Part shown: piece by piece, positions 35,010 to 64,000 of the stretch
Numbering within the stretch: the stretch's first letter is position 1
Layout: each line of letters starts with the position of its first letter
DNA from: Zeus faber
Lineage: Eukaryota > Chordata > Actinopteri > Zeiformes > Zeidae
DNA: 64,000 nucleotides
Direction of reading: 5' to 3'
Assembly (NCBI GenBank): GCA_960531495.1
Contig: OY482864.1
Span: forward strand, 8,477,644-8,541,643
Notes under the pieces: model-generated
The model's database searches: none
What the model saw: only the letters and a program-made list of their open reading frames with translations
Told to the model about the DNA's origin: nothing
Position numbers and translations under genes: made by a program

Positions 35010-35129
35010 TGGGCTTTGCCAGTTAGAAAAGCCTACCAAAAATAGGCGAAACTCTTATTTGTTCCTCTTCACGGAAGTCTTTAGTAAAAGGCGAAAGGCT
35101 TAATCGTACTGAAGAGAAACCAAAGTAAT
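35010..35129 (-). ncRNA. RNU5: U5 spliceosomal snRNA, copy a (complete)
   Basis: U5 aligns exon ends in the spliceosome through its loop I. On the - strand the RNA starts near TTTGGTTTCTCTTCAG, has the invariant loop region CGCCTTTTACTAAAGA (loop at 35084-35092), GAGGAACAA, and the Sm site CTATTTTTGG (35036-35045). It ends with a 3' stem-loop in which GGCTTT pairs with AAAGCC. Length is about 120 nt, as in other vertebrates. One C-A mismatch is visible in the stem under loop I. A PSE-like element lies 45-65 bases upstream and a tRNA-Asp-like gene about 295 bases upstream. It is the only uninterrupted U5 in the window. The exact 5' end is approximate. Confidence 0.93.
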
Positions 35130-35423: not shown

Positions 35424-35495
35424 CTCCCTATCGGGGAATTGAACCCCAGTCTCCTGCGTAGCAAGCAGTGATACTGGCCACTATACTAACGAGGA
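35424..35495 (-). tRNA. tRNA-Asp-like gene T1, anticodon altered
   Basis: 72 nt on the - strand starting TCCTCGTTAGTATAGTGG, matching vertebrate tRNA-Asp. The T-arm GGGGTTCAATTCCCC is intact and the acceptor ends ATAGGGAG with one mismatch. The anticodon loop reads TTGCTAC, so the anticodon is GCT rather than the GTC seen in the other copies. No T-run terminator is close. Probably a decayed tRNA-Asp gene kept within the U5 unit. Confidence 0.8.
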
Positions 35496-52260: not shown

Positions 52261-52311
52261 GGGCTTCGCCAGTTGGAAAAGCCTACCAAAGATAGGCGAA
52301 ACTCTTAGTTC
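52261..52311 (-). pseudogene. U5 snRNA 3' fragment, copy b
   Basis: Keeps the 3' stem-loop (GGCTTTTCCAACTGGCGAAGCC) and a changed Sm region (CTATCTTTGG). Loop I and the 5' half are replaced by spacer after CTTAGTT. Not functional. Confidence 0.85.
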
Positions 52312-52521: not shown

Positions 52522-52593
52522 CTCCCCGTCGGGGAACTGAACACCGGTCTCCTGCATGACAAGCAGGGATACTGGCCACTATACTAACAAGGA
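52522..52593 (-). tRNA. tRNA-Asp-like gene T3 (GTC)
   Basis: 72 nt on the - strand, TCCTTGTTAGTATAGTGG... with anticodon stem CCTGC/GCAGG, loop TTGTCAT and anticodon GTC. The acceptor ends GACGGGGAG. The T-arm has a mismatch (GGTGTTCAGTTCCCC), and TTCAGTT departs from the T-loop consensus. Function doubtful. Confidence 0.78.
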
Positions 52594-53209
52594 TCTGCCA
52601 GGCGATCATTCACAGACCAAAGTTAAAAATATCTTTTGTCACAAGGAAAACGTATCTGCAGATAGATGGTTATGGTATGCCTTATTTAGCTGGACAAATG
52701 AAATGGGCCGATGTATTTCCTAGGCCAGGGATGGGCTAATATTTTGGTTCAAGGGCCGGTTAGAGTTTTGAAAACAATGTGAGAGGCCACATTCAAGTTT
52801 ATTCAAGTTTCCTTTCTTTTTGGCTCATCAAATGAGGAAGAAGCTTCAAAAAGGGACTTGACTGTTGGACATGTTTTGAGTAGAAACAGGCACACGGAAT
52901 TAAAATCGCTTCAGAGATACGACAACCGTACAAAATGTAGTTGGAATGATTTGAACCGGCTTGGGGACAACCCGCTGGATTTTCAGACCATGGCTTCAAT
53001 CATTCACTTCATAATGAAAGGAAATTCACACTCTGTATTGTTCACTCGTATTCCTGCATCTGAATTACTGCGGTGAGGTGTGGGGTAATATGTACAAAAA
53101 AAGAGCCATGCAGGATTGACTCACAGTTTTACGCTTTTACTGCGAGCAAGGCAGATATCTTCGTGTTAACCACTCTGTGATTTACTTATACAATGTTGTT
53201 GGGCTTCGC
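52594..53209. repeat. U5-unit spacer
   Basis: hAT-like block (from 52718), LINE fossil (53026-53106) and a shortened downstream spacer, leading to U5 copy c. The distance from U5 b to U5 c is 950 bases, which gives the unit length. Confidence 0.75.
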
Positions 53210-53283
53210 CAGTTGGAAAAGCCTACCAAAAATAGGCGAAACTCCTAGTTGTCCCTCTCCACTGAAGTCTTTAGTAAAAGGCG
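53210..53283 (-). pseudogene. U5 snRNA copy c, 3' part (split by LINE)
   Basis: 3' half of a U5 gene: 3' stem-loop, Sm site CTATTTTTGG, and the stem up to loop I. It ends at CGCCTTTTACTAAAGA (53268-53283), which is repeated beyond the LINE. The 5' half is at 58244-58290. Apart from the insertion the gene looks well conserved. Confidence 0.92.
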
Positions 53284-53379
53284 GTTTATGTGGTTTTTAT
53301 TCAACACATAACCAAAACATTCAATCCCCACACCACTGTGGGACAAGACATGAAAGGAACAAACAGAGAAGAACAACAG

Positions 53380-56300
53380 TCAAACATGTGATAATAACAT
53401 AATACATACACCGAACCATGAAAGATAATCGCCATTCCCCCTCCCCCCAAAAAACCTACACCAAGCCAAAACGAGCCCTTTCCACCTCTCTAGGGCCGCC
53501 TGCTGTCCCCATCTCCCCACGTCTGCCCTGATCCTCCCTCTCACTTCCCCTTCCTCCCTCCTTATGACCCAGTCCACAGTCCCTCCCGAGCCTGATGAGG
53601 TCCTGCCTGGCCACCCACAAGCCCTTCTTGTAGAGGCTTATGAGCAGCCAGAGCAGGAAGCCTTCCTTCCTGTTTCCCCCTCTACCCACAACCCTCTCCA
53701 CGCTGGTCCAGGTCAGGGTGAACCCTCTCCTCACCCTGCTTAGCAGCCTTCCCGCCCTCGCCCACACCACCCCCGCGGAAGGGCAGTCTCACATGACATG
53801 ATTGATGGTCTCCTCCTCCGAGCATGCGGCTCGGGGGCACCCAGGGGATGTTGCCAAGCTCCGCCGGTACAAGGTGGTACGTACCGGCAGTGCTTTCTGG
53901 AGGCAGGACCAGTTTAGGTCCTTGAGCCCATTGTCCAGTGTGGTCACCCCCCGCCTCATCTCGGTGTAGCGCCTCCTCTGGTCCAGCCCCAAACCCCCCC
54001 CCCCATGCCTCGGGGTGAGCCCGAAGCCACTTCGCCGTATGGCCATAGTGCCATGGCACCTGCTCTAACTGGTCCCCAAGTTGCCCAAAGTCCCCATCAC
54101 CCTCCTCACCTGGTAAGAGAAGTATAGCTGGAGGAAGTGTCCTGATGGGTGGACCACCAGAGAGGACAGCTCCCTCAACAAAAAAGAAACAAAATAGCCA
54201 TCCAGCTTTAGTGGGAGGTGAGGCACGCCCCTTCCGCCCTCCCCGATCGGCGCATACATCCCGGCCCTCGCCGCATACTCGCACCGGCCCCACCACACGA
54301 ATTTGAACACGAGACACGTGAGGGGCGCCCGCATGCATGCCGGCATCGGGAAGACGTACAACTAGTACTGTCGGGACGGCAGCACGTCTGTGTTCAAAAC
54401 CAGCACCTTGCCTGTGAGGGTCAGTGTCCTGGGTTTCCAGAGGGCGACTTTCCTCTGGACAGCTTCAATTCGCCTGATCCAATTTAGTGACAGCCCCCCT
54501 GGTACGTCTGTCCTTCCCTTCCACCGCCCAAAGAACTTGACCGAGGTCTTCGCCACATTTCGCTCGGCGCCAGACACTCGGCCAAGCTCCTGGAAGATCT
54601 CCAAGGAGCGGAGCAGGCAGGCATCACTGTCCAGAAGCAGGGTGGTGTCATACGCATACTGGGACAGCTTGACCCTAAGGCCGCCACTGCCTGGTACCAG
54701 CAGTCCCCTCACACCCGGGTCAGCCCGAATGGCCGCCGCCAGGGGCTCCATGTAAAGGATGTAGAGCAGGGGTGAAAGCGGACACCCCTGCCTGCCACCC
54801 AAAAGGTTCCCCTAGGTGCCCGTTAACAAACCGTGCTCCCCACGGCCACCCAACAAACAGCTTCCCTAAACCTACTCTCTTTAAGACTCTAAACATAAAG
54901 CCCCAGTTAACCCTATCGAAAGGTTTGGCCTGATCGAGGCCTACCACCATTAGGGGTAGCCCTCTATCTTCCACCCAAGTGATAGCGTCTCTGATGAGCT
55001 GGAGGTTCCACCTCACAGAGCGCCCAGCCGCTCCACACGTCTGGTCCACGTGGACCGCATCCGGGAGGACTGTGCGCAGACGGTCAGCGAGGACCTTAGC
55101 TTGAAGCTTGTAGTCCACACAGCATGGTCAATGGCCGCCAGTTATTAAGGTCAGAGGTGTCTCCCTTCTTGAAAAGAAGGGAAATCAACCCCTTGGCCAT
55201 CGACCCTCCAAAAGCCCCCGCGCGGAGGACCTCGGTCAGCACCTCTAGCACCACCGGACCGAGCACACCCCAAAACTTGAGATAGAACTCGGCCGGCAGG
55301 CTGTCGATGCCCGGGAACTTTCGCTTTCCCATCCTTCGAAGGGCACCCTCAAGCTCCTCCAGAGTGAGGGGGGTCTCCAAATCTTCTGCCAGGTCAGGCG
55401 GCACCCGCCGGGCAACCCTCTCTAAGAAGGCTTCTTCCCGGGTCTCATCCACCACCCTTTCACAGAAAATGGAGCAATAGTGGTCAGTGGCGACCCTCAC
55501 CATCGCATCCGCTTCTGTCACCACCTGTCCCTGACTGTCCCTGACCCCCGTGAAAACTCGCCGCGCCTTCTCGGTCTGAACTGAGCCGAAAAAAGCCGCA
55601 GAGCACGTCTAATTGCTCTCTACGAACTCCCGACGCGACCGCAGCAGGTACGCGCGGGCCCTACTCTCATAGACCTCCCTAAGCTGCGCTTTAAGGGAGT
55701 CACAAGCTCGCTTGTCTGCAGTGCCACCGAGGTTCCCCACGGTGTACTCGAGCTCAAGGGGGCGTTGCAGGCGGAGCACCTCCCTCTTCGCCTGCTTCGC
55801 CTTCCTTTTTCTGTACCTAATGGCGTAAGCTTTAATCCTCTCCTTTGCCACTTCCCACCACTCTACCACTCCGGCACAGAGAGGCCTGAGCCCCTCGAGA
55901 CCCTGGAAAACCCCGGCAAAGCTGCCATCGAACACGTCCTCCTCGAGGATGCTCTGATTTAACTTCCAGTACCCCAGACCGAAGACCGGGGCACAGGACC
56001 GGACCCGGAGGAGGAACCCATCGTGGTCCGAGAAAAAGACGGGGAGCACCCGCCCAGACAGCACGCCCAAGGACCTTGAAAGAAAAACATAGTCCAGCCT
56101 CCTCGCACTCCCCTGGGTGTTTGGCCATGTGAGACCATCCAGTCGCGGGGTGACCACCCTCCCCCCGTCCACCAGCCCGTGCCCCGCCATGAAACCCTTG
56201 ACACAAACCCGCTCGTGTCCCTCCCTATATCTAAGTTAAAATCCCCCCCAATGATCACCTGTCTGTTGGTGGCCAGGTGTGGTCCCAGACCGGCCACCGT

Positions 56301-56666
56301 CTCCCTCCTCTCCCTCGTTCCCTGAGGCCCATAAAAAACAAAGACCCTCAAACAAAGACCCCTATACGCAATGTCCGCTCCCAGCACCCTCCCCTGCTCC
56401 ACAACATAAACCCCCTCTACCCTCACCCCCCTGTCCCCGAAAAGGATACCCACCCCTGAACTGTGAACGCCCCCCACACTCCAGACTGACGCCCCCTTGT
56501 CCCACTCCCTCGAAAAAATTCCCACGTCCCTCTCATCTCTCAAATGAACCTCTTGCAAGAAACAAATTGTGCATCCCAAACCCCCAACAAAATCAAAGAC
56601 TGCCCTCCTCTTAATTGAGTTCCTCATTCCCCGTGCATTGATTGTGACAACCCCCAAACAATTCAT
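53380..56666 (-). pseudogene. Tx1-like ORF2: endonuclease and RT
   Basis: Starts MNCLGVVTINARGMRN (ATG at 56666). The endonuclease has LQEVHLRDERDVG, GGDFNLDIGRD and, near its end, FFSDHDG. RT follows with LFKKGDTSDLNNWRPLTMLC, VVGLDQAKPFDRVNWGF (motif A), a damaged RQGCPLSPLLYILYMEPL region, and SQYAYDTTLLLDSD. In that last motif the expected YADD reads YAYD. The C-terminus ends near 53380. Frame changes occur near 55960, 55110, 54800, 54360 and 53800, and about 65 bp present in the second copy are absent near 54480. The protein would nick the target and copy the RNA there. Inactive. Confidence 0.88.
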
Positions 56667-56768
56667 TTAACACAGGTGATGAAAACCAAAATCGTGCCCT
56701 GAAAACCCTCCAACCCAAAAAACACCAAAAAACAATACCCCCATCTGAACACAGCAACAAACCCAACG

Positions 56769-58101
56769 TCAGCCATACAACCCCAACACCATGTCCTCCG
56801 GGCTCTCGTCCATGAGTTGACCCCAGGAATAGGGCATGTTGTTGGGGGAGGCGGGTGAACCCCATGGCCCCCCCTGCCCGTCACTCTCCAAAGGGGAGGG
56901 GCTTTCCTCCAGAGGGGGGGTCTCGCCCCTGACATCTGCCACCACTCTCTCCCTTAGGCCCGCCCTCCCCACAACACCCCCTGCTACTTCCCTCATCTTT
57001 TTGGGGTCCTACTTGCCCAACTGGAGGTGGTCCCTCTTCCTCTGGGTCGCCGCCTGGGTGCCTGACCCGGCTGAATCTGCCGGTGGTGATGTCTCAAGAG
57101 GAACCGTCGCAGGTGTAGGGAACGCCGCAGGAGACGCTTCTGCAGATGGAGCTGCCATCGGCTGGGACACTACAGGGAGAACCTCCCCAGGTTCTGCCAC
57201 AGAAAGAGCAGCTGCCGTGGGGGGAGCCGGGACACACCGGGACAGGGGGCACCGGCACCGAAAAAGCAGGCGGGTCAACCGCGGTTGGAGCCGCGGAAGG
57301 AGGATGCGCTGGCTCCGCAGTCGGTCGATCCGGCTCCCTCTTGGGGCCGCCTATGCCCCTCAAAGCGGCCGCGTAGGCCCTGCTGCACTCCTTGGCGAGC
57401 TGCTCGGACGATTCGCAGATGTGGCAGGCCCTGGGCATCGGACACTCCCTTGCCCCATGCCCAAGGGCCTAACAAAACCTGCACCTTGTTTGGCCACATT
57501 CTCCCTCCGCGTGGCCGCTAGCCCTGCACCTACGGAAGACAGCTGGCTGCCTCGATAAAAACAAGTAGCCCCGATCTGCCCCGATGTTGAAAAACACCGG
57601 GGGGTGGGCCAAACCCCCCACCCCCGCCGCGTCCTGCCCCGGGAGGGTCTGATACTGGCGCTTACCTGTCCAGATGCCGTTGCTGTCCCTCAGACGCCTC
57701 GGGGCAGTCAGCACCTCCGCGTACCTCCCCAGGAACGCCGCCACAGCCTGATCCGACACATAGGGGTTGTACATGTGGACCGTCACCACCCGAAAGTTCG
57801 GCCTGTCCAGGCTTTGCAGATTGAAAAGGGAGACTGGCCTTGCTCCCGCTTGCCGCCTGCTCTCCTCCAGGGCCCTGTCGCACACTTCCTGTCCCAGAAA
57901 GGTGACGTCGAAACTCCTCTCCGCGTTGTTCGTCTGCAGGCAGAGTATATTCTCCGCCTTCAGTTTCAGGGCCCCAAGCAGGACAGCCCTCCCAAAGAGC
58001 TCCCTGGTCATCATGGGCTCCTTCTCTTCATTCCACCTATAGCGTAGCGTAGCCCTTAGCCCAGCTCTCGGGTCCGACTGTGAAGTTCCAGCCTGCGCCA
58101 T
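56769..58101 (-). pseudogene. Tx1-like ORF1 with CCHC zinc knuckles
   Basis: ATG at 58101 (MAQAGTSQSDPRAG). The N-terminal part lacks known domains. It is followed by a zinc-knuckle region in which the first knuckle starts RCRASGHAEGEC, the second contains CRFC, and a third starts ECPMPRACHICE, in the CX2CX4HX4C pattern. A Pro/Ala-rich tail with KRDHLQLGK leads to the end near 56770. Frame changes near 57470 and 57280 break it. ORF1 proteins of this type bind the element RNA. Confidence 0.82.
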
Positions 58102-58243
58102 GTTGCAGCTGTGCTTTCTTGTTTCTCCAACAGCGAAAAAAACCTCTCCACCGGACACTAGAGTCCCCAAGCAGGTTTCACATATGATACCGGATGTTGC
58201 AAAACACCCTCAGGATCATGGTGTCCCCCCTACCCGTCGAGAA

Positions 58244-58290
58244 TCTTTAGTAAAAGGCGAAAGGCTTATTCTGAAGAGAAACCAGTGTAA
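58244..58290 (-). pseudogene. U5 snRNA copy c, 5' part
   Basis: On the - strand: start near TACACTGGTTTCTCTTCAG, then AATAAGCCTTT and CGCCTTTTACTAAAGA (the duplicated 16 bases) before the LINE. It completes the 53210-53283 half. Confidence 0.92.
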
Positions 58291-58442: not shown

Positions 58443-58514
58443 CTCCCCGTCGGGGAATTGAACGCCGGTCTCCAGCGTGACAAGCAGGGATACTGGCCAC
58501 TATACTAACGAGGA
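58443..58514 (-). tRNA. tRNA-Asp-like gene T4 (GTC)
   Basis: 72 nt, the best-preserved copy: TCCTCGTTAGTATAGTGG, anticodon loop TTGTCAC (GTC), T-arm GGCGTTCAATTCCCC, acceptor end GACGGGGAG. Against the vertebrate tRNA-Asp I recall, only a few bases differ, including a mismatch in the anticodon stem. It lies about 150 bases before U5 copy c. It may be functional. Confidence 0.83.
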
Positions 58515-59120: not shown

Positions 59121-59203
59121 GGGCTTCGCCAGTTGGAAAACTCTACCAAAAATAGGCGAAACTCTTAGTTGTCCCTCTCCACGGAAGTCTTTAGTAAAAG
59201 GCG
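59121..59203 (-). pseudogene. U5 snRNA copy d, 3' part (split by LINE)
   Basis: 3' half of a further U5 gene, with Sm site CTATTTTTGG, ending at the same base as copy c (CGCCTTTTACTAAAGA at 59188-59203). The second Tx1-like LINE begins immediately after. The 5' half is outside the window or lost. One arm of the 3' stem is changed (AGAGTTTTCC). Confidence 0.9.
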
Positions 59204-59342
59204 GTTTATGTGGTTTTCATTCAAAACATCACCAAAACATACAATCCCCACACCACTGTGGGACAAGGCGTTTCCGGAACAAACAGAGAATGATAACCGC
59301 CCAACAATTCTTTACACGTGACAATTTGCATAATCCCAAACC

Positions 59343-62221
59343 CTACACTAAGCCCAAACCCCCTTTCCACCTCTCTCGGGCCGCGTGCTGTCCCCATCTC
59401 CCCACGTCTGCCCTGATCCTCCCTCTCACCACCTCCTCCACCCTCCTTATGACCCCCTCAACCCCACATCTCCCGAGCCTGATGAGGTCCTGCCTGGCCA
59501 CCCACAATCCCTTCTTGAAGAGGCTTTTGAGAAGCCAGAGCAGGAAACCTTCCCTCCTGTTCCCCCCTCTGCCCACCCCCCTCTCCACGCTGGTCCAGGT
59601 CAGGGTGAACCCTCTCCTCACCCTGCTTAGTAGCTCCCCTGCCCTTGCCCACACCACCCCCGCGAAGGGGCAGTCCCACATGACATGAGCGATGGTCTCC
59701 TCCTCCGAGCACGCGGCTGGTGGCACCCGGGGGATGTCGCCAAACCCCGCTGGTATGTGGTGGTACGTACAGGCAGTGCTTTCTGGAGGCAGGACCAGTT
59801 CAGGTCCTCGAGCCCACTATCCAGGCCGGGAGGCCGGACCTCCAGCTAGACTGCCGCCGGAATCCCTACGGCAGCCGGTGCGGTCACCCCTCGTCTCGGC
59901 GTAGAGCCTCCTCTGGTCCAGCCCCAAACCCCCCTCCCAAGCCTGGGGGTGAGCCCGAAGCCACTTCGCCGCATGGCCATAGTGCCATGGCATCTGCTCT
60001 GACCGGGGCCCCAATTTGCCCAAAGGCCCCATCACCCTCCTCGCCTGGTAGGAGAAATACAGCCGGAGGAAGTGTCCCGATGGGTGGACCACCGGAGAGG
60101 ACAGCTCCCTCAACAAAAAGGATACAAAATAACCGTCCAGTTTTAGTGGGAGGTGAGGCACGCCCCTTCCGCCCTCCCCGATCGGCGCGTACATCCGGGC
60201 CCTCGCCGCATACTCGCACCGGCCTCCCCACACGAATCCGAACATGAGCCGCGTGAGGGGCGCCCGCATGCTTGCCGGCATCGGGAAGACGTATGACAAG
60301 TACAGTAGGGACGGCAACACGTCTGCCTTCAAAACCAGCACCTTGCCCGTAAGGGTCAGTGTCCTGGATTTCCACAGGGCGACTTTCCTCTGGACAGCTT
60401 CTATTCGCCCGGTCCAATTTACCGTGGCGCTGTGGGCTGCCTCAAAATCCACCCCGAGTATTCTCAGGAGTCCTACGCAGAGCGGCAGCCCCCCTGGTGC
60501 GTCCATCCTTCCCTTCCACCGCCCAAAGAACTTGACCGAGGTCTTCGCCAGATTTAGCTCGGCGCCAGACACTCGGCCAAACTCCTGGAAGATCTCCAAA
60601 AAGCGGAGCAGGCAGGCATCACTGTCCAGCAGCAGGGTGGTGTCATCCGCATACTGGGACAGCTTTACCCTAAGGCCGCCGCTGCCTGGCACCAGCAGTC
60701 CCCTCACACCGGGTCAGCCCGAATGGCCGCCGCCAGGGGCTCCATGTAAAGGATGTAGAGCAGGGGTGAAAGCGGACACCCCTGTCTTACCCCTGCGTGC
60801 AACCCAAAAGGTTCCCCTAGGTGCCCATTAACACAAACCGTGCTCCCCACGGCCGCGTACAACGTACGCAGCCACCCAACGAACAGCTTCCCTAAACCTA
60901 CTCTCTCTAAGACTCTAAACATAAAGCCCCAGTGAACCCTATCGAAAGCTTTGGCCTGATCGAGGCCTACCACCATTAGGGGTAGCCCTCTATCTTCCAC
61001 CCAAGCGATAGCGTCTCTGATGAGCTGGAGGTTCCATCTCACAGAGCGCCCAGCCACTCCAGACTTCTGGTCCACGTGGACCGCATCCGGGAGCACTGTG
61101 CGCAGACGGTCAGCGAGGACCTTAGCTAGAAGCTTGTAGTCCATACACAGCATGGTCAATGGCCGCCAGTTATTAAGGTCAGAGGCGTCTCCCTTCTTGA
61201 AAAGAAGGGAAATCACCTCCTTAGCCATCGACCCTCCAAGAGCCCCCGCGCGGAGGACCTTGGTCAGCACCTCTAGCACCACCGGACTGAGCACACCCCA
61301 AAATTAGAGATAAAACTCGGCCGGCAGGCTGTCGATGCCCGGGACCTTTCGCTTTCCCATCCTTCGGAGGGCACCCTCAAGCTCCTCCAGAGTGAGGGGG
61401 GTCTCCAAAGCTTCTGCCAGGTCAGGCGGCACGCCGCGGGCAACCCTCTCTAAGAAAAAAAAAAACTCTGGCGAAGCTGCCACTGATCCGTCCTCCTCGA
61501 GGATACTGGGATTTAACTTCCAGTATCCCAGGCCGAAGACTGGAGCACAGGACCGGACCCGGAGGAGGACCCCATCGTGGTCCGAGAAAAAGACGGGGAG
61601 CACCCGCCCAGACAGCAGGCCCAAGGATCTTGAAAGAAAAACATAGTCCAGCCTCCTCGCACTCCCCTGGGTGTTTCGCCATGTGTGACCATCCAGTCGC
61701 GGGGTGACCACCCTCCCCCCGTCCACCAGCCCGTGCCCCGCCATGAAACCCTTGACACAAACCCCGCTCGTGTCCCTCCCTATATCTAAGTTGAAATCCC
61801 CCCCAATGATCACCTGTCTGTTGGTGGCCAGGTGTGGTCCGAGACCGGCCACCATCTCCCTTCTCTCCCTCGTTCCCTGAGGCCCATAAAAAACAAAGAC
61901 CCTCAAACAAAGACCCCTATACGCAATGTCCGCTTCCAGCACCCTTCCCTGCTCCACAACATAAACCCCCTCTACCCTCACCCCCCTGTCCCCGAAAAGG
62001 ATACCCACCCCTGAACTGTGAACGCCCCCCACACTCCAGACTGACGCCCCCTTGTCCCACTCCCTTGAAAAAATTCCCACGTCCCTCTCATCTCTCAAAT
62101 GAACCTCTTGCAAGAAACAAATTGTGCATCCCAAACCCCCAACAAAATCAAAGACTGCCCTCCTCTTAACTGAGTTCCTCATTCCCCGTGCATTGATTGT
62201 GACAACCCCCATACAATTCAT
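59343..62221 (-). pseudogene. ORF2 of the second Tx1-like LINE
   Basis: ATG at 62221 (MNCMGVVTINARGMRN). The endonuclease is open down to about 61450 (GGDFNLDIGRD, FFSDHDGVL), then joined in frame across the deletion to LERVARGVPPDLAEALETPL. RT motifs are LDQAKAFDRVHWGF, AGVRQGCPLSPLLYILYMEP and an intact SQYADDTTLLL. Breaks are a stop near 61300, a one-base deletion near 60705 (the first copy has the extra C), and an interruption near 59770. The RT core is better preserved than in the first copy. Confidence 0.88.
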
Positions 62222-62509
62222 TTCAACACAGGTGATGAAAACCAAAATCGTGCCCCGAAAACCCTCCAACCCAAAAAACACCAAAAAACAATACCCCCAT
62301 CTGAACACAGCAACAAACCCTACGTCAGTCATACAACCCCAACACCATGTCATCTGGGCTCTCGTCCATGAGTTGACCCCATGAATAGGGCATGTTGTTG
62401 GGGGAGGCGGGTGAACCCCATGGCCCCCCCTTCCCATCATTCTCCAAAGGGGAGGGGCTTTCCTCCAGACAGGGGGGTCTCCCCCTGACATCTGCCGCCA
62501 CTCCCTCCC

Positions 62510-63859
62510 TTAGGCCGTCCTCCCCTTGACACCCCCTGCCACTTCCCTCATCTTTTTGGGGGCCACCTTGCCCAACTGGAGGTGGTCCCTCCTCTTCCTG
62601 TGGGTCGCCGCCTGGGTGCCTGACGCAGCGGAATCTGCCGGTGGTGATGCCTCAAGAGGGACCGTCGCAGGTGGAGGGAACGCCGCAGGAGACCCTTCCG
62701 CAGATGGAGCCGCCATCGTCAGGGCCACCGCAGGGAGAACCTCCCCAGGTTCTGCCACAGAAAGAGCAGCAGCCGCAGGGGGGGCCGCCGCAGGAGGAGT
62801 TTCGGGGGGGGGCGGGCACTTGGGGGCCGCCTGCCCAGGGACCCCCACACGGCGGTGCTGCCCCGGGGGCCGTGGCTGCAGCCGGAGCCGTGCAGGGGAA
62901 ATGCTGCGGGAGAAGCCTTTCCGGGGACCACCGCAGGAGGAGCCAATGTCTTTTTGGCTATCACCGGAGGTCCCGCCGCATTGGGCGCCGAGACCGCCGC
63001 TCCTGGCAAATCCAGCGCCAAATCTGGATCCCCCTGATGCCGGCACACCGGGACGCCGCGGGAGGAGGATACGCTGGCTCCGCAGTCGGTCGATCCGGCT
63101 CCCTCTTGAGTCTGCCTATGCCCCTCAAAGCGGCCACGTAGGCCCTACTGCGCCCCTAGGCGAGGTGCTCGGACGATTCGCAGATGTGGTAGGCCCTGGG
63201 CATCGGACACTCCCTTGCCCCATGCCCAAGTTCCTGACAAAACCTGCACCTTTGCTGTCCACATTCTCCCGCTGCGTGGCCGCTAGCCCTGCACCTACGG
63301 CAGAAAGCCGGCTGCCTCGAATAAAACAGGTAGCCCCGATCTGCCCCGATGTCTAAAAACGCCGGGGGGTGGGCCAAACCCCCCACCCCCGCCGCGTCCT
63401 GCCCCAGGAGGACCTGATACTGGCGCTTACCTGTCCAGATGCCGTTGCTGTCCCTCAGGTGCCTCAGGGCAGTCAGCACCTCCGTGTACCTCCCCAGGAA
63501 CGCCGCCACAGTCTGATCGACACATAGGGGTTGTACATGTGGACCGTCACCACCTGAAAGTTCGGCCTGTCCAGGCTTTGCAGATTGAAAAGAGAGACTG
63601 GCCTTGCTCCCGCTTTCCACCGGTCTCCTCCAGGGCCCTGTCGCACACCTCCTGTCCCAGGAAGGTGACGTCGAAACTCCTGTCGGCGTTGTTCGTCTGC
63701 AGGCAGAGTAGATCCTCCGCCTTCAGTTTCAGGGCCCCAAACAGGACAGCCCTCCCAAATAGCTCCCTGGTCATCATGGGCTCCTTCTCCTCCTTCTGCT
63801 GATAGCGTAGCCCTCAGCCCAGCCCTCGGGACCGACTGTGAAGTTCCAGCCTGCGCCAT
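62510..63859 (-). pseudogene. ORF1 of the second Tx1-like LINE
   Basis: ATG at 63859 (MAQAGTSQSVPRAG). Three zinc knuckles are visible: CRRCRASGHAAGEC, CRFCQELGHGAREC and a third starting CHIC. A long Pro/Ala/Gly-rich tail contains a stretch of about 190 bp not present in the first copy, and the end reads KVAPKKMREVAGGVKG. Frameshifts lie near 63500 and 63150. Confidence 0.82.
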
Positions 63860-63940
63860 GTTGCAGCTGTGCTTTCTTTCTCCAACAGCGATAAAAACCT
63901 CTCCACCGGACACTAGAGTCCCCAAGCAGGTTTCACATAT

Positions 63941-64000
63941 ATTGCAATTCGCATAATCCCAAACCCTACACCAAGCCCAAACCCACTTTCCACCTCTCTA
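63941..64000 (-). mobile_element. Third Tx1-like LINE, 3' end (runs off window)
   Basis: 60 bases matching the LINE 3' region (compare 59322-59378, starting GCATAATCCCAAACCCTACAC). It is placed head-to-tail directly behind the 5' end of the second LINE. The last 115 or so bases of the 3' UTR are missing at the junction. Confidence 0.8.

Follow-up and report, generated by a model that had tools for sequence, protein, structure and literature searches.

One way to place a LINE that interrupts a U5 snRNA gene is to set it beside elements already known to occupy repeated genes. Mutsu, Dewa and Tx1L belong to the Tx1 group. Like the U5 LINE they have repeated sequences as targets, but these are 5S rRNA genes, a tRNA-Leu spacer or another element, not U5 (PMC3706591 for Mutsu and Dewa). 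Keno likewise combines an AP-type endonuclease and a reverse transcriptase with an snRNA gene target; however, it inserts in U2 snRNA, whereas the U5 LINE sits in U5, in loop I, with a duplication of 15-16 bases. Utopia also targets an snRNA gene (U2; PMC4640811) but carries a restriction-like endonuclease, where that of the U5 LINE is AP-type. R2 uses one fixed site in a tandem RNA gene array, the 28S rRNA genes, but has a restriction-like endonuclease and belongs to another clade (PMC5035012, PMC13188248). The Dada elements resemble the U5 LINE in using multicopy small RNA genes (U1, U6, tRNA); they differ in being DNA transposons, with duplications of 6-7 bases, and U5 snRNA goes unmentioned in the main text of that report (PMC8869645).

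The first-pass annotation of this locus knew of no described U5-specific lineage, and we found none in the literature searched. The snRNA targets of transposons listed in a 2015 paper (PMC4640811) are confined to U2 (for Keno and Utopia) and to U1 and U6 (for Dada), and passages of PMC5718144, PMC13188248, PMC10294476 and PMC5035012 contain nothing on a U5 target. The features that define the Tx1 clade are present: an AP-type endonuclease, a separate ORF1 with CCHC fingers, and ORF2. A relative named TX1, from Danio, is 39% identical over 48% of the query, below the length cut of the tree. We regard the element as a new target-specific lineage, probably of the Tx1 clade.

The interrupted U5 gene and the U1 leader

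The window, the whole stretch of 64,000 nucleotides that was analysed, contains an interrupted U5 gene, a second copy of the LINE and an uninterrupted U5 gene (Table 1). On the minus strand the order is U5 5' part, CGCCTTTTACTAAAGA, the insert (58243 down to 53284), CGCCTTTTACTAAAGA, U5 3' part. The proposal that a LINE lies in U5 loop I with a target duplication is thus confirmed at base resolution, with CGCCTTTTACTAAAGA on either side and an empty U5 gene in the window, in which the 16-mer occurs once (35078-35093). The duplication, first given as 16 bp, is present at both ends; its length is better stated as 15 or 16 bp, since the target's last A doubles as the element's first base. Domain matches within the insert are to ZCCHC3 RNA-binding domains, Exo_endo_phos and RVT_1; the reverse transcriptase motif is YAYD, and the frames of ORF1 and ORF2 are both broken. 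Copy 2, absent from the first-pass annotation, adjoins copy 1 and has the identical 3' junction; it is joined to a 3'UTR piece from a third copy that reaches the window edge, and the sequence beyond also contains LINE 3' part.

Table 1. Features of the window
Feature	Position	Strand	Support
Uninterrupted U5 gene, empty target site	35012..35128	-	Rfam RF00020, 84.5 bits (gathering score 40)
Further tRNA-like genes	35424-35495 and 52522-52593		
U5 3' fragment without 5' part, neighbouring unit	52262..52310	-	
U5 snRNA 3' part, downstream of copy 1	53202..53267	-	blastn 91.5%, 82 bases including duplication
3' target duplication, CGCCTTTTACTAAAGA	53268..53283	-	
U5-inserted LINE copy 1 (4960 bp), with both ends but disrupted ORFs	53284..58243	-	
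Reverse transcriptase pieces (PF00078), two frames	54362..55127	-	
Start of ORF2 with part of an AP-type endonuclease (PF03372), broken frame	55959..56666	-	
Initial part of ORF1, with two ZCCHC3-type RNA-binding domains, before the frame breaks	57469..58101	-	
U1 snRNA-like 5' leader of copy 1, decayed	58199..58244	-	36/48 aligned bases equal U1
5' target duplication, CGCCTTTTACTAAAGA, U5 loop I region	58244..58259	-	
U5 snRNA 5' part, upstream of copy 1	58260..58290	-	blastn against intact window U5: 86%, 51 bases including duplication
tRNA-like gene upstream of U5 in array unit	58443..58514	-	Rfam RF00005
U5 3' part abutting copy 2 on its downstream side, 16-mer (59188-59203) included	59122..59203	-	
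LINE copy 2, without first 58 bases and ~480 internal bases	59204..63940	-	four blastn pieces, 82-94% identical
3'UTR piece of third copy, fused to copy 2	63941..64000	-	

The 5' end of the U5 LINE consists of about 46 bases of U1 snRNA, starting at U1 base 1 and running in the sense direction; in one copy all 46 of 46 are identical to host U1, and the score of the copy 1 leader against U1 was reached by none of 2000 shuffles. Such a leader is absent from the 5' ends read of a related LINE in U2 genes (see below). Most likely it would have been acquired once, via the copying or joining of U1 RNA, and inherited since; for L1, either template switching or RNA ligation is known to yield snRNA-LINE chimeras (PMC13174262). 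A 5' transduction from an earlier stay in U1 genes, in place of template switching or RNA joining, is unlikely but deserves weight: the start at U1 base 1 and the sense direction are those of a transcript from an interrupted U1 gene, and PMC3464664 describes linked U1, U2 and U5 genes in one fish family, but five U1 or U1-like genes read, of 217 U1 matches, show no interruption near base 46. Whatever its route, the leader suggests a way in which such elements gain new 5' ends.

A shared insertion base across the genome

The junction was surveyed in one genome, the window's own (803 Mb), in which the LINE 3' terminus, with at most 2 mismatches, occurs in 58 places. The terminus is joined directly to U5 loop sequence in 53 of the 58 (44 exact, 2 with 1 mismatch, 6 with 2 and 1 with 3; a reversed-pattern control of this graded search gave 9 matches at up to 3 mismatches). 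The junction is in each of these at CGCC of U5 loop I: one shared insertion base. Two further termini have U5 on the 5' side. Chance is ruled out, because the 16-mer CGCCTTTTACTAAAGA occurs 288 times in the 803 Mb and its reversed control not at all, and because so large a share of the 3' ends abut the U5 loop. Duplications were read at the 5' junctions of several copies and measure 15-16 bases wherever readable; a 13-base duplication considered for array copies was dropped, since a duplication of 15-16 bases with a single A-to-C change agrees with the other copies. Viral contigs yielded no copies, and from a genome-contig collection came 12 distant loci, which lie in records of bacteria and archaea.

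The same bases beside most other copies were what the first-pass annotation had looked to as proof of specificity; they are there in this genome, and U5-specific retrotransposition is supported both by these junctions and by a copy with unrelated flanks (see below). A shared insertion base and the reverse transcriptase and endonuclease domains, which are among the marks of a site-specific non-LTR retrotransposon, are both found.

A second perspective supposes a looser endonuclease preference, for example for T-rich snRNA or for array chromatin, with the bias to U5 arising from loss of copies elsewhere. It draws on the few non-U5 3' flanks. Three of the 58 termini, at C20:9.100 Mb, are a local tandem of LINE tails, in which CGCC is followed by GACCGCAGCAG and then by more LINE tail, and no U5 was found in the 1.6 kb read there; on C11, the 3' flank of a diverged copy is likewise not U5, and a decayed U5 close to the 5' end of that copy continues past the loop. 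(A 3' flank common to the C11 and C22 copies was considered and rejected: only 10 bases are alike.) This perspective is nevertheless very improbable, as survival alone would not fix the junction base, which is identical in 53 places, and the duplication keeps its length wherever readable.

Taken together, we put at about 0.93 the probability that this is a non-LTR retrotransposon family, probably of the Tx1 clade, that inserts at a single U5 snRNA site by target-primed reverse transcription. That is, the AP-type endonuclease would nick the antisense strand between ...CTTT and CGCC in the loop I region; the 3' end of the LINE RNA would be copied from this first nick; a second nick, 15-16 bases downstream, would then produce the target duplication. 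Recognition of the U5 site by the endonuclease and the order of these steps are what we infer; the fixed 3' junction, the duplication of 15-16 bases, the occupation of U5 genes of different kinds, purifying selection and some open ORFs are observed. Conserved endonuclease columns gave no signal of U5-specific change (3 U5-only against 4 U2-only), and a hairpin joining the LINE 5' end to the U5 5' part was rejected as not conserved: z was -2.84 in an array copy, as against +1.26 in the window copy and +1.22 in the C22 copy.

Insertion and array growth

On contig C20, a single large U5 array contains the majority of copies. Many of these are duplicates from growth of the array, and array copies are not independent. 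Because the two window copies have flanks that are 94% identical, flanks cannot attest their independence, for which dN/dS is the sole basis. Elsewhere the picture differs: at C20:15.70 Mb a copy within the canonical U5 cluster shares 96.5% identity with a copy from the array, but nothing outside the U5 gene is homologous between their flanks. A further copy, at C15:27.04 Mb, has a decayed canonical U5 as its neighbour (67 of 79 bases identical, a match equalled by 0 of 1000 shuffles). Several insertions are therefore independent, because copies occupy U5 genes with unrelated flanks. The copy tree joins the canonical-U5 copy and one array copy as sisters (100/100) and leaves the C15 copy outside; label shuffles on this tree found no clustering by kind of U5 gene, one group there being two rows and the comparison without power.

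Between copies dN/dS ranges from 0.28 to 0.71, with 12 of 15 pairs at or below 0.48; these values show that purifying selection acted between copies. One array copy of 5237 bp has an open ORF1 of 505 codons and an open ORF2 of 1120 codons, and the 1120-codon frame is found in 17 array copies among those listed; ORF1 of an open array copy contains three CCHC motifs. A single chance insertion in a U5 gene, multiplied by array growth and implying no target specificity, would suit the many near-identical copies in one tandem array and the alike flanks in the window, but it is the least probable account and in our view refuted, because the canonical-U5 copy is so close to an array copy without sharing its flanks, and because the C15 copy, the tree and the selected divergence all stand against it.

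A sister LINE in U2 genes and the change of target

The same genome contains a sister LINE in U2 genes, with an ORF2 84% identical to that of the U5 LINE (100/100 support). It lies within U2 in all five loci read, with TCTGTTCTTATCAG as its 3' flank; compared with the U2 sequence, the junction appears to have no duplication and a short loss of U2 bases. The position is apparently the Keno site. Since a U2-inserted LINE is the sister of the U5 lineage, there has been a change of target in at least one of them.

A tentative scenario, which we hold somewhat short of even odds, has a U2-specific LINE of Keno type giving rise to the U5-specific LINE inside the host lineage, with a founding chimera in which the first ~46 bases of U1 RNA became the new 5' end. 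If this is true, the element bears traces of three spliceosomal RNAs (U2 in its descent, U1 in its leader, U5 as its home); target change would happen through the proximity of snRNA genes, or of their transcripts, to one another; and the U1 leader would have a role, for example in expression or in 5' joining.

Few eukaryotic RNA sequences are as conserved as U5 loop I, so an element that recognizes it has a target in almost all eukaryotic genomes. Copies with open frames are present in both LINEs, and with so much of ORF2 shared the determinants of target choice are therefore testable by exchange of parts. The pair could show how such elements switch target. Site-specific LINEs also attract interest as a means of placing DNA at a selected position.

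Insertion at the U5 loop

The first-pass annotation had described a LINE splitting loop I of a U5 snRNA gene, and this is what the window holds: CGCCTTTTACTAAAGA flanks a 4960-base insert on both sides, with the two U5 halves outside. The insert has pieces matching ZCCHC3 RNA-binding domains (ORF1), Exo_endo_phos and RVT_1; the copy is dead, because its reading frames are broken. The second copy in the window is joined at its 5′ end to the 3′UTR of a third. The window's U5 is part of a tandem unit that also holds a tRNA-like gene, matched by Rfam; a tRNA-Asp-like sequence lies near the snRNA gene both in U5 units (window 58443-58514) and in U2 units of the same genome (loci L095, L096 and L097). 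A cluster of U3 snoRNA matches (eleven, window 1196-31877, plus strand) adjoins the U5 array.

Positions and junctions of the U5 LINE and its target
Feature	Position	Strand	Remarks
U5 5′ part, CGCCTTTTACTAAAGA, 4960-base insert, CGCCTTTTACTAAAGA, U5 3′ part	window	minus	order along strand
Empty target site: uninterrupted U5	window 35012-35128		Rfam, gathering score; sole U5 in window at that score
Second U5 LINE copy	window, begins 59204		3′ junction identical to that of first copy
5′ junction, window copy	window		CGCCTTTTACTAAAGA|TTCTCG
5′ junction, array	C20 (8 loci)		CGCCTTTTACTAACGA|TACTTACC
5′ junction, C22	C22		CACATTTTACTGAAGA|TACTTACC
5′ junction, further C20 copy	C20:9.127 Mb		CTCCTTTTCCAAAGG|ATACTTACC
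Tandem of three LINE tails	L113, C20:9099600-9101200		two ~340 bases, one rearranged; CGCC + GACCGCAGCAG after each in place of U5

Searches covered the window's own genome (803 Mb, 153 contigs). The 16-mer, the duplicated target bases, occurs there 288 times (reversed control, 0), and among the matches listed all places lie on C20 at 8.40-8.68 Mb. The last 23 bases of the LINE, searched with downstream sequence ignored and up to three mismatches allowed, gave 86 places (reversed control, 17); 28 places with three mismatches were left out because they are mostly chance, and 58 LINE 3′ ends were kept. When U5 was added to the 3′-end query, 53 places matched (44 without mismatch, two with one, six with two and one with three; reversed control, 9), all within the 58 by coordinate comparison. 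The expectation that most copies would be joined to the U5 target is thus borne out in this genome, at 53 of 58 ends. As for the other five, C22:5014621 has the U5 5′ part on its 5′ side, and C20:9120463 is a truncated copy with U5 on the 5′ side and LINE sequence on the 3′ side. The three at C20:9.100 Mb lie in a run of successive LINE tails of ~340 bases, ending CGCC + GACCGCAGCAG, and U5 was not found around them in the 1.6 kb read; they are either rearranged or evidence against reading U5 as the target. A DNA search with a stretch of the reverse transcriptase (RT) scored 40 copies among 186 candidates; the C20 array accounts for 33 of the 40, contigs C56, C75, C93, C118 and C151 for six and C22 for one.

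Independence of the insertions

Many of these insertions are not independent, because the array copies are near-identical and have changes in common. Canonical U5 is another kind of gene: a 30-mer from it has nine exact occurrences in the genome, eight in a cluster at C20:15.67-15.71 Mb, apart from the array, and one in a solitary, uninterrupted gene. Seven genes of the cluster are intact by Rfam and one is interrupted by the U5 LINE, here 96.5% identical to an array copy, with flank similarity between the two confined to the U5 gene. This LINE is without its 5′ end, and the broken end adjoins a UnaL2-type LINE tail (L073 1578-1649). At C20:9.12-9.13 Mb, two canonical-type U5 5′ parts also carry the LINE; at C15:27.04 Mb, a diverged copy adjoins a decayed canonical U5 (67/79 bases; 0/1000 shuffles). 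Close to the 5′ end of a diverged copy on C11 lies a decayed canonical U5 (56 bases, 79%) that extends beyond the loop, and non-U5 sequence flanks the copy on its 3′ side. That flank (L114, L101; C11:5.82 Mb) has ATTCCTCCTG in common with the C22 copy.

A tree of seven U5 LINE copies and the related LINE of U2 genes groups the canonical-U5 copy with an array copy (100/100) and places the C15 copy outside the other six (100/100). Among six U5 LINE copies dN/dS is 0.28-0.71 (15 pairs; ≤0.48 in 12); therefore, much of the divergence arose while the lineage was functional. One array copy has both frames open (ORF1 505 codons, ORF2 1120 codons).

Junctions and the U1 leader

The 3′ junction, ...CACATAAAC|CGCC followed by U5, is found at 29 of the 30 loci read. 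On the 5′ side, some ends are truncated or rearranged (e.g. C118 and the canonical-cluster copy); all four types in the table fit a decayed duplication of 15-16 bases. The duplication annotated as 16 bp stands as a repeat at both ends; its length is 15-16 bases, the terminal A being common to target and element. LINEs insert by target-primed reverse transcription, and such a reaction with two fixed nicks, which we infer, would leave a duplication of this length.

The 5′ end of the U5 LINE aligns to U1 snRNA from U1 base 1. Against a reference U1 sequence, identity is 39/43 aligned bases in the array, 41/48 in C22 and 36/48 in the window copy; 0/2000 shuffles scored as well in each. The leader of the copy at C20:9.127 Mb is identical to two host U1 genes on C12 over U1 bases 1-46, and that of the truncated C20:9.120 Mb copy over bases 1-42; in C22, cmscan places U1 at the leader position with 21.0 bits, far under the 69.5 threshold (E 0.069). 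None of the U2 LINE 5′ ends read carries such a leader. LINE-1 5′ ends fused to snRNA sequences via template switching or RNA ligation have been described (PMC13174262); here the U1 piece has become a component of the U5 LINE lineage. U1 5′ ends number 217 genome-wide at ≤1 mismatch, and a U1 variant (GGTAGGGG) forms a tandem array of ~3 kb units on C7, ~29.0-29.3 Mb.

A sister lineage in U2 genes

Searching the genome with the RT protein gave 151 matches, and among those listed a second group appears at ~90-91% identity, concentrated at C1:1.74-2.25 Mb and with a few members on C10. All five of its loci read lie in U2 snRNA genes. Their 3′ junction is ...AAAATC(A)n|TCTGTTCTTATCAGTTTAAT, with a base change at one of the C10 loci; where a 5′ junction was visible (four loci), the 5′ flank is GGCTAAGATCA or GGCTGAGATCA. 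An inverted repeat spans the 5′ junction at L105 443-471, where GGCTAAGATC nearly mirrors GATCTTAACC. The 3′ terminus has 72 exact occurrences, 70 on C1 and two on C10, a count of the terminus alone, joining to U2 having been read in five loci.

The U5 and U2 LINEs are sisters (100/100, tree of 22 proteins). ORF2 is 84% identical and ORF1 57%; per 40 residues of ORF2, identity is 90-98% in the RT, 70-90% in the endonuclease and 68-90% in the C-terminal part. dN/dS between them comes to 0.06 for the RT, 0.18 for the endonuclease and 0.54 for the latter half of ORF1; therefore, selection persisted on both lines. The best RT relatives with an animal name are mostly from ray-finned fish. Another related LINE, with RT ~43% identical and in most cases a frame of 1321 codons, is dispersed over many contigs (e.g. 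C10:23014535 and C10:23020563); among the matches listed are three pairs ~6 kb apart. At C13:26.4-27.6 Mb, a related LINE has fifteen near-identical partial copies resembling satellite units. A contig filed as a bacterial MAG (L001, JAHXIV010000038.1) encodes a Tx1-like RT and also has U2 snRNA; it probably stems from a contaminating eukaryote that carries a Keno-like element.

No U5-targeting retrotransposon was recognised in mainly open-access papers, Repbase aside, dealing with site-specific LINEs, snRNA genes as targets, and U5; a 2015 compilation of snRNA-targeting transposons gives U2, U1 and U6 only (PMC4640811). Polarised changes between the two LINEs gave no information on the older target. 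U2 is the likelier ancestral one, because Keno, a LINE of U2 with an AP endonuclease, has been recorded in fish, frogs, lancelet and hydra (PMC4640811). Linkage of snRNA genes in fish, reported as U2-U5 in several families and U1-U2-U5 in one (PMC3464664), gives a physical setting for the U2/U5 pair.
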